This document shows positions 42,401 to 61,034 of a stretch of 61,034 nucleotides of DNA, piece after piece. Position numbers and translations under genes: made by a program. The notes beneath the pieces were generated by a model. It ran no database searches and had not been told where the DNA came from. It saw nothing but the letters and a program-made list of their open reading frames with translations. The stretch is taken from assembly GCA_029210625.1 (NCBI GenBank), contig JARGFU010000028.1, positions 1 to 61,034 on the forward strand. The letters are read 5' to 3'. How positions within the stretch are numbered: position 1 is the first letter of the stretch; each line of letters starts with the position of its first letter. Source of the stretch: Deltaproteobacteria bacterium. Its GTDB lineage: Bacteria > Myxococcota > Myxococcia > SLRQ01.

Positions 42401-44074
42401 CACGCAGGCATCGCAGCCGTCGGCCGGGTTCAGGTTGCCGTCGTCGCAGGGCTCGTCCGCGTCGACCACCGCGTCTCCGCAGACCTCCACCTTGCGGCAG
42501 TCCCCGCGGCAGCCGTCGCCGCTCGCCGTGTTGCCGTCGTCGCAGACCTCTGCCGCGGCGAAGATCACGCCGTCCCCACACACGTCCTGCAGGCAGCCGT
42601 GGCAACCATCGGTGTCGAGGGTGTTCCCGTCGTCGCACTCCTCGCCGGCCTGCACGATGCGGTCGCCGCAGACGGGCAGGGTGCAGGCGTTGGTGCAGCC
42701 GTCGTTGTCGACGTCGTTCGCGTCGTCGCACTCCTCGTCGGGTGAGACCACGCCGTTCCCGCAGGTGGTCACGGTGCAGTTCGCGTCGCAGCCGTCTCCG
42801 CTGACGAGGTTGCCGTCGTCGCAGGCCTCGGTCCCGGTCACCACGCCGTTGCCGCAGGCGGTCACGGTGCAGTTCGCGTCGCAGCCGTCCCCCGAGCTCA
42901 GGTTGCCGTCGTCGCAGACCTCGGCCCCGGCGACCACGCCGTTGCCGCAGGCGGTCGGGCGGCAGTTGCTGTCGCAGCCGTCGCCGTCCACGGCGTTGCC
43001 GTCGTCGCAGATCTCGGCCCCGGTCACCACGCCGTTGCCGCAGGCGGTCGCGGTGCAGTTCACGTCGCAGCCGTCTCCGCTGACGAGGTTGCCGTCGTCG
43101 CAGGTCTCGGTGCCGGCCACCACGCCGTTGCCGCAGGCGGTCGGCCTGCAGTTGGTGTCGCAGCCGTCGCCGTCCACGGCGTTGCCGTCGTCGCAGACCT
43201 CGCTCCCGCTCACCACGCCGTTGCCGCAGGCCGTGACCGTGCAGTTCGCGTCGCAGCCGTCTCCGCTCGTGAGGTTCCCGTCGTCGCAGATCTCGTCTCC
43301 GGCCAGCACGCCGTTGCCGCAGGCGGACACCCGGCAGCCGTCGTCGCAGCCGTCGCCGTCGATGTCGTTGCCGTCGTCGCAGGCCTCCCGTCCCGGGTTC
43401 AGCACCCCGTCGCCGCAGACGTTCGGCACACAGGTCGAGAGGCAGTCGTCGGCGTCCTCGCCGTTGCCGTCGTCACAGCCCTCGGCGAGGAGGTTCTGGA
43501 TCCCGTCGCCGCACACGTTCGCGAGGCAGGAGGGGAGGCAGCCATCCCGGGCCTCCGCGTTGCCGTCGTCGCAGGCCTCGACCCCCTCCTGAACGATGCC
43601 GTCACCGCAGCTCGGCAGCCCGCAGCTGTTCCGGCAGCCGTCGGTGTCCACGCCGTTGCCGTCGTCACAGGCCTCGAGGGCGTGGTGGACGATGCCGTCG
43701 CCGCAGCGCGCCACCGTGCAGGAGGTCGTGCAGGCGTCGGTGTCCACGTCGTTGCCGTCGTCGCAGGCCTCGCCGGCCGAGACGGTCACCACGCCGTCGC
43801 CGCAGCGGGGGGCCACGCAGGCGCCGCTCATGCAGATGCCGTCCACCTCGCACTCGTTGCCGTCCGGAGCCCAGGCCGCGTCGTCTCCCTCCCGCACGAC
43901 GCAGGGGTGGTCGGGCGAGACGCAGAGGCCGACCTCGAGGACGCAGAGCAGGCCCGCGGGGCAGTGGGCGGTCTCCTTGCAGAGCACCTGCACCTGCTCC
44001 GGCGTGGCCTCCTCGAAGGTGCAGCCGCCGACGAGGATGAGGATCGAAGATGCGAGCGCGAGTCGAGCGACCAT
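39401..44074 (-). CDS. Giant lipoprotein: 15 Cys-rich DUF4215-like repeats plus NHL repeats (1557 aa)
   Basis: ATG 44074 (GGAGG four bases upstream) gives a type II signal peptide with Cys18 in LVGGC. Residues ~85-565 hold 15 myxococcal Cys-rich repeats, each CGxG, then CDDGN, then DGC and a final Cys; units 6-11 are almost identical. Residues ~580-1500 are a long beta-propeller stretch of about 16-17 NHL-like units with the pattern DGxGNLYIAD and repeated RVRRVDA...ITTVAGTG, enough for two or three propellers. Expected location is the outer surface; the Cys-rich part may be a disulfide-stabilised stalk and the propellers binding heads. The longer start at 44122 lacks a signal peptide. Confidence 0.9.
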
Positions 44075-58418: not shown

Positions 58419-58703
58419 ATGGTCCAGCCCAGTGAAGCCGTCACGCTCGTCTACGGCATCATCGCCCTGGTCACGCTCGCGTGGGTGATCCGCGGTCTCG
58501 AGCTTCCCGGTCTGCGCTGGATGGTCGCAGGCGTGGCGCTCATCGGCCTGGCCTACGTCTTCACCATCGTCGAGGGCTTCGTCTGGCACGCGCTCTTCGA
58601 CACGCTGGAGCACAACTGCTACGCCCTCGCGGGGGTCGCCTTCCTAGTGGGCACCCTGCGCCTGGTGCGCTCCTCGGTGCGCGAGGAGAGGCCGCGACGA
58701 TGA
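58419..58703 (+). CDS. Small three-span membrane protein (94 aa)
   Basis: Three hydrophobic segments: TLVYGIIALVTLAWVIRGL, WMVAGVALIGLAYVFTIVEG and CYALAGVAFLVGTLRLVRS, with a basic C terminus. The LEH/FxxLEHNCY element before the third helix resembles the LLEHGG element in the next kinase's N-terminal membrane domain, hinting that the two share a fold. ATGA overlap (4 bases) with the histidine kinase gene implies coupled expression and probably a complex. No family recognised. Confidence 0.7.
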   Translation: MVQPSEAVTLVYGIIALVTLAWVIRGLELPGLRWMVAGVALIGLAYVFTIVEGFVWHALFDTLEHNCYALAGVAFLVGTLRLVRSSVREERPRR

Positions 58704-60016
58704 CCATCGAGGTCGTCGCCGCGGCGCTGGTCGCCAGCCTCACCTTCTTCATGGCCTTCGGCCTCTCGTTGGTGGCTCGGCACCGGCTCCTCGATCGCCC
58801 TGCCCGGATCTTCCTCGCGGTGTCCATGCTCACCTACGGCCTGGTGAGCGTCTCGAACCTGCTCGAGCACGGCGGGATCACCGCGGCGTTCGATCCCTAC
58901 GAGGACTTCCTCGAGATCCTCTTCCTCCCCTTCTTCCTCTTCTTCGTCTACGTCGCCTCCCGGAACGCGGTGCAGCAGAAGCTGGCGGCCGAGGAGGGGG
59001 TCCTCGCCGCGACCCTCGAGGCCGTGGGGGACGCGGTCATCGGCATCGACGCCCTCGGCCGCATTCGCTGGACCAATGGAGCGACGACGGAGCTCCTGGG
59101 AGAGCTCGAGCCGGCCCGGGACCTGAGACTCCGGGACCTCCTGGACCACTCGGAAGGGGAGCCGCTCAGCGTCGAGGAGGAGGAGAGCCTCCTGGAGTTC
59201 GCAGGTGGCGCGGGGCCGGTCCGCCTTCGCTCTCGCCGTGCGGGACGGCCCCTCGAGGTCCGGATCGCCCCGGTCGGCAGGGCCCTGGTCGATGGCGTGC
59301 GCACGGTGGTGGTCATCCGTGACCTGGCCACCCAGCTGGCGCACGAGCAGCAGATGCTCGAGATGTCCCGGGTCGAGGCCCTCGGCGTGATGGCCGGCGG
59401 CCTCGCTCACGACTTCAACAACCTCCTGATGTCCATCTCGGGCAACGTCGAGCTCGTGCAGATCAAGGATCCTCCGGCCGGCGTGGGGCGTCGGGCCCTG
59501 GAAGACGCGATGATCGCCATCCACCAGGTCGGAGAGCTGACCCAGAAGTTGCTGCTGCTCTCCCGGAAGCAGGTCACCCAGCAGCGCCTGCAGCCCATCA
59601 CGCCCGTCCTCGAGGAGGCCGCGCTGCTGGTGAGAGCGCGTAGGGACATCGAGTTCCAGCTGGCGCTCCCCAGGGACCTGCCCGAGCTCTCCTTCGACCA
59701 CGCCCAGATCCTCCAGCTCTTCAACAACCTGGTGCTCAACGCGGCGCAGGCCATGCCCGACGGAGGCGCCCTGCGCGTGTCCGCGCAGGCCGAGCGCGAC
59801 TCGGTACTGGTGACGGTCAGCGACGAGGGAGAGGGCATCGCCCCCGAGCACCTGTCGACGATCTTCGACCCCTACGTGACGACGAAGGAGGAGGGCACGG
59901 GCCTGGGCCTGGCGGTGGTCCGGGCGGTAGTCCGCAACCACCATGGACGCATCGAGGTGGACTCCACGCCGGGCGAGGGCACCAGCTTCAAGGTCTGGCT
60001 GCCCAGGGCAATCTGA
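58700..60016 (+). CDS. Membrane PAS histidine kinase (438 aa)
   Basis: Three membrane helices at ~5-95 (LVASLTFFMAFGLSLVA, FLAVSMLTYGLVSVSNLLEHG, FLPFFLFFVYVA), a PAS domain at ~105-205 (LEAVGDAVIGIDALGRIRW), a HisKA H-box GGLAHDFNNLLMSISGNVEL of the HDFNNLL class, and a complete HATPase: NNLVLNAAQAMPDGG, DEGEGIAPEHL, TGLGLAVVRAVVRNHHG. ATG 58700 overlaps the small membrane gene. No regulator is next to it; the repeat array follows the gene. Confidence 0.92.
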   Translation: MTIEVVAAALVASLTFFMAFGLSLVARHRLLDRPARIFLAVSMLTYGLVSVSNLLEHGGITAAFDPYEDFLEILFLPFFLFFVYVASRNAVQQKLAAEEGVLAATLEAVGDAVIGIDALGRIRWTNGATTELLGELEPARDLRLRDLLDHSEGEPLSVEEEESLLEFAGGAGPVRLRSRRAGRPLEVRIAPVGRALVDGVRTVVVIRDLATQLAHEQQMLEMSRVEALGVMAGGLAHDFNNLLMSISGNVELVQIKDPPAGVGRRALEDAMIAIHQVGELTQKLLLLSRKQVTQQRLQPITPVLEEAALLVRARRDIEFQLALPRDLPELSFDHAQILQLFNNLVLNAAQAMPDGGALRVSAQAERDSVLVTVSDEGEGIAPEHLSTIFDPYVTTKEEGTGLGLAVVRAVVRNHHGRIEVDSTPGEGTSFKVWLPRAI

Positions 60017-60050: not shown

Positions 60051-60062
60051 TGGCCGGGGATC

Positions 60063-60381
60063 GAGAAAGGTACACGAGAAAGGTACCCGAGAAAGGTACC
60101 CGAGAAAGGTACCACCCACTTGGCCCCGAGAAAGGTACCCGAGAAAGGTACCGAGAAAGGTACTACCGAGAAAGGTACCACCCACTTGGCCCCGAGAAAG
60201 GTACCCGAGAAAGGTACGGAGAAAGGTACCGGAGAAAGGTACGGAGAAAGGTACCACCCACTTGGCCCGGAGAAAGGTACTGGCCGAGAAAGGTACCACC
60301 CACTTGGCTGGCGGACCGAGAACGGTACAGAGAGAGAGAAAGGTACAGAGAGAGAGAGAGAAAGGTACCACCCACTTGGCG
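60063..60381. repeat. GAGAAAGGTAC tandem-like array with embedded CACCCACTTGGC
   Basis: Seventeen exact and one variant (AACGG) copies of GAGAAAGGTAC in about 320 bases, with short variable joins. Five copies continue into CACCCACTTGGC, beginning at 60113, 60179, 60255, 60297 and 60369, at irregular intervals of 66, 76, 42 and 72 bases. Most copies give GGTACC, itself palindromic, so neighbouring units can form small hairpins with loop CGAGAAA. Located between the PAS kinase and a Y1-type transposase. Open frames cross it on both strands but are by-products of the repeat. Confidence 0.9.
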
Positions 60382-60390
60382 GACCGATCC

Positions 60391-60474
60391 CCGGCCAGCC
60401 TGATTGAGGGCCGGACCAGTTTCGTGTCTACCGGGCCATAAGCCCCGTATTTTTAGGGGGTTCCATGTTGGCCC
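60391..60474. other. Two hairpins between the repeat array and the transposase
   Basis: First CCGGCC/GGCCGG with a 12-base loop at 60391-60414. Then a two-stem structure at 60433-60474: outer GGGCCA/TGGCCC, inner CCCC/GGGG around loop GTATTTTTA. The second ends 22 bases before the transposase ATG. Y1 transposases bind imperfect hairpins at element ends, so one of these may be the left-end recognition site; inference only. Confidence 0.5.
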
Positions 60475-60496
60475 CTCCCTTGCTGATGGCTCCCGC

Positions 60497-61034
60497 ATGG
60501 CACGTCCACTGCGCTACTCGGAGCCCTGGCAACCCGTCGAGATCACCGCCCGCACCACCCAGGGGCGCTTTCTCCTCAAACCCTGCAAGAGGCTCAACGC
60601 CCTCATCGCCGGCATCCTCGCCATCGCCAAGGAACGCTACGACGTCCACATCTATAACTTCGTCTTCCTCTCCAACCACTTTCACCTCCTCGCCGCCGCT
60701 GCCTCTCCGAGGGTTCTCTCGTCCTTCATGGGCTTCGTCATGGGCAACATCGCCCGGGAGGCCGGCCGTCTCTACGGATGGGAGGGACCCTTCTGGGCCC
60801 GGCGCCATCGGGTGATCCCCATCGTCGATGAAGCCTCTCTCATCGAGCGGATGCGCTACATCTTCGAGAACGGCTGCAAGGAAGGCCTCGTCACCCATCC
60901 GGCGCTCTGGCCCGGCCTCAACGCCGTCGAGGCCCTCACGAGGGGTACTCCGACCGAGGGTCTCTGGGTGGACCGGACCTCGTTCTACCGGGCACGCAGG
61001 CAGGGAAGGCTGGACCTGACGGAGGAGGACTTCA
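60497..61034 (+). CDS. Y1/HUH transposase, REP-associated tyrosine transposase-like (3' end outside window)
   Basis: The frame from ATG 60497 stays open to the window edge: 179 residues visible. The HUH motif is His61-Phe-His63 in VFLSNHFHLLA, and the candidate catalytic tyrosine is Tyr121 in MRYIFENGCKEGLV, positioned like the RYIxxNP...GLV segment of REP-associated transposases. The region between (FMGFVMGNIAREAGRLYGWEGPFWARRH) also fits the family. Such enzymes cut and rejoin single-stranded DNA at hairpins. It lies just beyond the repeat array and hairpins. The C terminus and downstream end are not in view, so element boundaries are unknown. Confidence 0.88.
   Translation, partial: MARPLRYSEPWQPVEITARTTQGRFLLKPCKRLNALIAGILAIAKERYDVHIYNFVFLSNHFHLLAAAASPRVLSSFMGFVMGNIAREAGRLYGWEGPFWARRHRVIPIVDEASLIERMRYIFENGCKEGLVTHPALWPGLNAVEALTRGTPTEGLWVDRTSFYRARRQGRLDLTEEDF

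Follow-up and report, generated by a model that had tools for sequence, protein, structure and literature searches.

The window (the whole stretch of DNA that was analysed, 61,034 bases long) is the entire contig C28, and the gene for a Y1/HUH transposase at its right end is therefore truncated at 179 codons. Upstream of this gene lies an array of short repeats, preceded in turn by a host gene. The features of the region are the following, with "tip" denoting the GGTAC(C) motif and "element" the putative transposon.

58481 to 60016, forward strand: open reading frame of a sensor histidine kinase, a host gene in the left flank, outside the element
60061 to 60062, forward strand: inferred left boundary of the element (putative nick site), with host T60061 on one side and C60062 on the other, placed by the 7-nt outer-boundary rule from 141 arrays
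60062 to 60380, forward strand: terminal array of 18 units, each made of 7 outer bases, GGTAC(C) and a variable inward run
60062 to 60380, forward strand: outer 7 bases of the array units, CGAGAAA, with the variants GGAGAAA, CGAGAAC and AGAGAAA
60101 to 60126, forward strand: long unit 1, CGAGAAA.GGTACCACCCACTTGGCCC
60167 to 60192, forward strand: long unit 2, with the same sequence as long unit 1
60243 to 60268, forward strand: long unit 3, starting with GGAGAAA
60285 to 60316, forward strand: long unit 4, with the deepest run into the element (...TTGGCTGGCGGAC)
60357 to 60380, forward strand: innermost unit, made up of the tip and ACCCACTTGGC, which leads without a break into the element interior
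60381 to 60496, forward strand: element interior, from the terminus to the transposase start codon
60497 to 61034, forward strand: Y1/HUH transposase gene, 5′ 179 codons, with the 3′ part past the contig end
60677 to 60685, forward strand: codons of the HUH motif, His61-Phe62-His63, both histidines conserved in the alignments of 17 and 57 sequences
60857 to 60859, forward strand: codon of the putative catalytic Tyr121, which aligns with Y115 of E. coli TnpAREP (PDB 4ER8)

Elsewhere in the window, a long tandem repeat with units of 93–96 bp (42602–43772) is probably a coding repeat.

Like the two histidines, Tyr121 was found to be conserved among the 17 and the 57 aligned relatives. The window protein scored 21 bits against Y1_Tnp, just below the cut-off of 23 bits, and the full-length paralogue passed this cut-off at 28.2 bits; the window transposase is 72% identical to the paralogue P0002 on contig C26. 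A search of the PDB with a profile of the family led to E. coli TnpAREP (4ER8) with the catalytic tyrosines aligned, and the same structure was the closest match (E 1.5e-6, target TM 0.73) to an AlphaFold model of a relative (pLDDT 93), in which a C-terminal helical extension is also present. Scores against NCBIfam NF047646 were 50.3 bits for the truncated window protein and 51.1 bits for P0002, below the 80-bit cut-off, and the signature of RAYT class 2 at the catalytic tyrosine (Y- - -NP) is absent, the alignment having Y- - -HG or Y- - -NG.

An earlier, sequence-only reading of this DNA had counted 18 copies of an 11-base unit, five of them extended, upstream of a Y1-type transposase gene, and both the count and the position were confirmed. 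Between 60063 and 60368 there are 17 exact copies of GAGAAAGGTAC and a mismatched one (GAGAACGGTAC at 60318), all in a single orientation, with five CACCCACTTGGC extensions (at 60113, 60179, 60255, 60297 and 60369), and 117 nt separate the end of the array from the likely ATG at 60497. The natural unit, however, is not the 11-mer but one of 13 nt (60062–60074 onward) that starts 7 nt before GGTAC: when the array is cut 7 nt before each GGTAC, it falls into 18 head-to-tail units from 60062 to 60380, with nothing left over. The short units measure 12–22 nt and mostly have GGTAC or GGTACC at their end, the long ones end in ...CACTTGGC(CC), and one unit ends in ...GGCGGAC. Genome-wide repeat counts were obtained by pattern searches and from selected stretches of the 6.11 Mb genome. 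Only two further exact copies of GAGAAAGGTAC were found, both on contig C54, and the 11-mer was accordingly rejected as an independent class of dispersed repeat; with one mismatch allowed, the whole genome gave 21 forward and 3 reverse matches, compared with 3 forward and 4 reverse for the reversed-sequence control. Tandem Repeats Finder scored the array at 195 (period 13) and 304 (period 66). By these counts and scores, the array is far beyond chance.

A protein scan of the genome contigs with the truncated window protein returned no matches, and an alignment-based scan succeeded. The contig scan yielded 104 relatives of the transposase, mostly from Myxococcota and Acidobacteriota, and a search of the phylum found homologues in 29 of 195 genomes. 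Beside many of these relatives stand arrays of other sequences in the same layout (CCCAATA-GGTGCC three times, CATCGTA-GGTGCCACCCAAACCGCCACACCC, CGGAGAC-GGTGTC, CTGAGAT-GGTGTC), and the downstream end is the mirror image (GACACC-CTCTCCG, GGCACC-TTGTTGG). Terminal inverted repeats flank the transposase gene (GGTGTCAAAGAACTC / GAGTTCTTTGACACC, with equivalents in relatives); they were read from the relatives, the right end of the window element being beyond the contig end. Internally deleted elements, some with a remnant of the transposase gene, have arrays at both ends (L094). The tip occurs as GGTGTC, GGTGCC or GGTACC (conserved form GGTRYC), and what the loci have in common is the tip and the layout, while the 7 outer bases ("N7") vary from locus to locus. 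The suggestion of an undescribed repeat class linked to the transposase family was right about the link, which is real and general, and wrong about the 11-mer, which is no repeat class because only layout and tip are shared. What is repeated is the end of the very element to which the transposase belongs; it is no independent repeat.

The myxobacterial tip GGTGTCAAAGRAYTC occurs 3–86 times in 10 of 195 genomes and at most once elsewhere, its reversed control occurs in none of these ten, and nine of them have a transposase match at E ≤ 1e-20, the tenth (G064) being without one. Whether most relatives lack the array, which the sequence-only reading had offered as a test of the link, received a mixed answer: a strict search found arrays at 36 of 102 loci, many of them at contig ends, and an exact tandem repeat of at least 11 nt adjoins 53 of the 84 transposase loci with adequate flanks versus 22 of 122 control windows.

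Contigs C54, C57, C58 and C26 of the same genome also show the pattern, with sites that fit the 7-nt rule. On C54 (L010, 1940–2020), two CGAGAAA-GGTACC units are accompanied by an inverted CCACCCACTTGG pair about 30 nt off, possibly a minimal non-autonomous copy of the window element. Three CCTGATA-GGTGCC units on C58 (L031, 729–791), two of them extended by AGCCACTTGGC, resemble the window element end in sequence, but their N7 differs, and the Y1 profile detected no transposase on that contig. On C26, P0002 has a single unit at its left end and several at its right end (L027, 290–365), all with a CAGCACC end, and on the same contig (L026, 810–840) GCGGATA-GGTGC stands twice, again with the 7-nt spacing, beside a different Y1 protein, P0003; the rule may extend beyond the window transposase family. 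Another Y1 gene, on contig C1 (L028, 483000–488000), belongs to a different family member and lies between inverted AACCAGGATAGTTT copies without an array. In Archangium lansinium, a 1077-bp repeat that starts with AGAGGGTGTTGAAC (L123, 8070–9146, and L129, 4378–5454; 99.8% identical) resembles an insertion sequence of a different type that was active recently.

How far the copies within an array agree was measured as the reach of identity on the outer and on the inner side of the tip, for 141 arrays (59 from transposase flanks and 82 from four myxobacterial genomes). Outward, identity stops at 7 nt: in the transposase-flank set, 0 of 50 arrays stopped at 6 nt and 17 of 50 at 7 nt, and in the pooled set the stop rate was 20/247 at 5–6 nt versus 73/178 at 7–8 nt (Fisher p = 7e-16, which is only a guide because full independence is lacking where several arrays share a genome). 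The exceptions in the four-genome set are 7 of 82 arrays that stop at 5 nt and 11 of 82 that stop at 6 nt. Past 7 nt, the agreement decays roughly as predicted from chance and C-rich microhomology. Inward, the reach varies from 3 to 75 nt and peaks at 6 and 15–17, very short units being undercounted because the array finder demands a 6-nt tip. Decoys with permuted tips gave means of 0.8 and 1.0 arrays, compared with 54 and 80 for the real tip. In the pair L106/L107, which are 97.7% identical over 1.1 kb at different sites, homology begins exactly at the outer edge, and the edge is therefore probably the terminus of the element.

One alternative is slippage or recombination alone, in which a chance first duplication at a GC-rich end would have been expanded by the host with the transposase uninvolved. 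Arrays with at least two identical units can expand that way, the period-13 runs of the window look alike, and many unit joints have short C matches. Slippage, however, offers no reason why one edge should lie 7 nt outside the tip in 141 differently flanked arrays while the other varies, why the mirror image should appear at both ends, or why tandem repeats should be enriched beside the transposase, and we regard it as unlikely.

The idea that N7 is purely a target sequence or a target-site duplication was rejected, because the two ends of a single element usually have different N7 and because a recent pair of copies has the same N7 at different sites; from these two observations, N7 appears to lie at least partly inside the mobile unit. 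It is conserved, or nearly so, across several recent copy pairs, and in the near-identical L174/L178 the right N7 is identical and the left N7 differs. At the joints a preference for C was seen: C is the host base immediately outside the element in 79 of 128 arrays (33% expected, p = 5e-11), and the last base of the longer units is C in 36 of 62 (27% expected, p = 4e-7), a preference of 58–62% that is not absolute. In the window array, C precedes 14 of the 17 unit joints by direct reading of the unit table. The inner ends favour +5/+6 and +15–17, not every C, and 74 unit joints have 1–8 extra bases that are strongly C-rich (102 of 189); those in the window are no copy of the host flank.

That this preference is common to the unit ends and to the host base preceding the element, and that non-autonomous copies are common, could speak for nested or repeated transposition, with each unit the remnant of a separate element-end or short non-autonomous insertion in the same place. 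One array has one N7, though, and other loci have different ones, such that many independent donors with an identical N7 would be needed, and the units are without a right end; this explanation is distinctly improbable. Among the roles that the sequence-only reading had allowed for the array, substrate and product pointed in the right direction. A selected array of regulatory or iteron type, in which binding of the transposase to the tips would shut down its own promoter or help to load the enzyme on the DNA, is highly improbable, since left arrays do sit just upstream of the gene but arrays also occur downstream, at the right end, and around internally deleted copies without an intact gene, and the left-end copy number ranges from 1 to 18 among the paralogues of one genome.

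The preferred reading, which we consider fairly probable, is that these repeats are head-to-tail copies of the left end of a Y1/HUH transposon, made on the spot by its own transposase. Its basis, read directly from the DNA, is the anatomy of the array, the statistics of its edges, the base bias at the joints and the association with the transposase. The transposase would nick single-stranded DNA at the element boundary (C^N7-GGTRYC) and keep the cut 5′ end (N7-tip) as a phosphotyrosine, leaving the flank with a 3′-OH. A 3′-OH ending in C would then attack the phosphotyrosine-held 5′ end, and could come either from the nicked strand, extended slightly into the element, or from another copy cut inside the element. 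The product would be host + (N7 + tip + n bases) + (N7 + tip + element), each round adding one copy of the tip with its outer edge fixed and its inner edge variable; as the new copy would carry the boundary again, the reaction could repeat. The agency of the enzyme, the position of the nick and the source of the 3′-OH we infer from the pattern. The array would mainly be a side product, the trace left by abortive rounds of cleavage and strand transfer; slippage may enlarge it later, and growth after the first duplication could proceed by ordinary recombination or slippage.

Counted against this mechanism are the partial C preference, the favoured inner ends, the joints with 1–8 extra bases, the arrays that stop at 5 or 6 nt and the difference in the left N7 of L174/L178. 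Searches of congeneric genomes recovered no empty sites for L094 and L107. Also against it, 15 left ends of one clade gave no covariation support for a terminal or subterminal REP-like hairpin, and such a hairpin was set aside for these ends. Independent biochemistry agrees with the array joints: E. coli TnpAREP cleaves at C|T, leaves Tyr-5′P and requires the attacking 3′ base to be C, and with a group 3 enzyme a change from GTAG to GTGG shifted cleavage to CC (PMC8266576). Arrays of this kind accompany related transposons in two phyla and share one cut point, which suggests that the transposase made them and marks where it would cut. That in-place amplification of the ends is common to an entire group of Y1 transposons, by way of a transposase nick, a short extension or second cut, and rejoining, has in our estimate an even chance of being right; if true, it would be a tandem-repeat-generating HUH activity, and its sequence trace would reveal, for uncharacterised transposases, the cleavage site (7 nt outside the tip) and a 3′-C joining rule.

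The family probably corresponds to TnpAY1 subclass 2.1, or RAYT group 1, of Quentin et al. 2018 (PMC6006769), who found no REP-like sequences alongside subclass 2.1 genes. This subclass ranks among the largest groups of Y1 proteins, but no REP-like substrate was recognised for it. What the arrays offer is a pointer to the substrate, a probable cut site at single-base resolution and a predicted joining rule, which makes a simple oligonucleotide assay possible. They also suggest another origin of bacterial short tandem repeats, as copies made by an enzyme in which one edge is fixed and the other free. The open-licence literature searched gave no description of terminal arrays that follow the fixed-edge rule.

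Among known systems, the family resembles and stands near the poorly known TIRYT/TIRtrons, with two reported marks missing. These were named by Di Nocera et al. 2013 (PMC3733652), who noted clustered TIRs, some TIR families being described as dimers or clusters; they share with the present family a RAYT-like HUH-Y1 protein of ~300 aa and inverted repeats in place of GTAG hairpins. The majority TIR consensus given there, in contrast, is GGGGWSAS, where the tip here is GGTRYC, and the C-terminal HTH-like domain reported there (Bac_DnaA_C, HTH_23, HTH_28) had no Pfam match at E ≤ 1 among 17 members here. The available TIRYT/TIRtron descriptions make no mention of tandem arrays at the ends whose outer edge is fixed at 7 nt, as seen here. 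With the RAYT/REPtrons and their REPINs and BIMEs (E. coli TnpAREP, 4ER8), the family shares the catalytic fold and C at the 3′ side of cleavage or joining, and the reported tandem clusters of REPs that take in pieces of the neighbouring DNA (PMC3733652) are a further likeness to the arrays. The RAYT/REPtron hairpins are headed by GTAG or GTGG, whereas none was identified here by covariation in the same 15 left ends of one clade; moreover, the elements here are multi-copy with the gene inside, and their units are termini, not hairpins. The IS200/IS605 elements (IS608, ISDra2) likewise have single-strand HUH-Y1 transposases of similar fold, but their ends are not inverted repeats and have subterminal hairpins, whereas the ends described here are inverted repeats, either of which can bear arrays.
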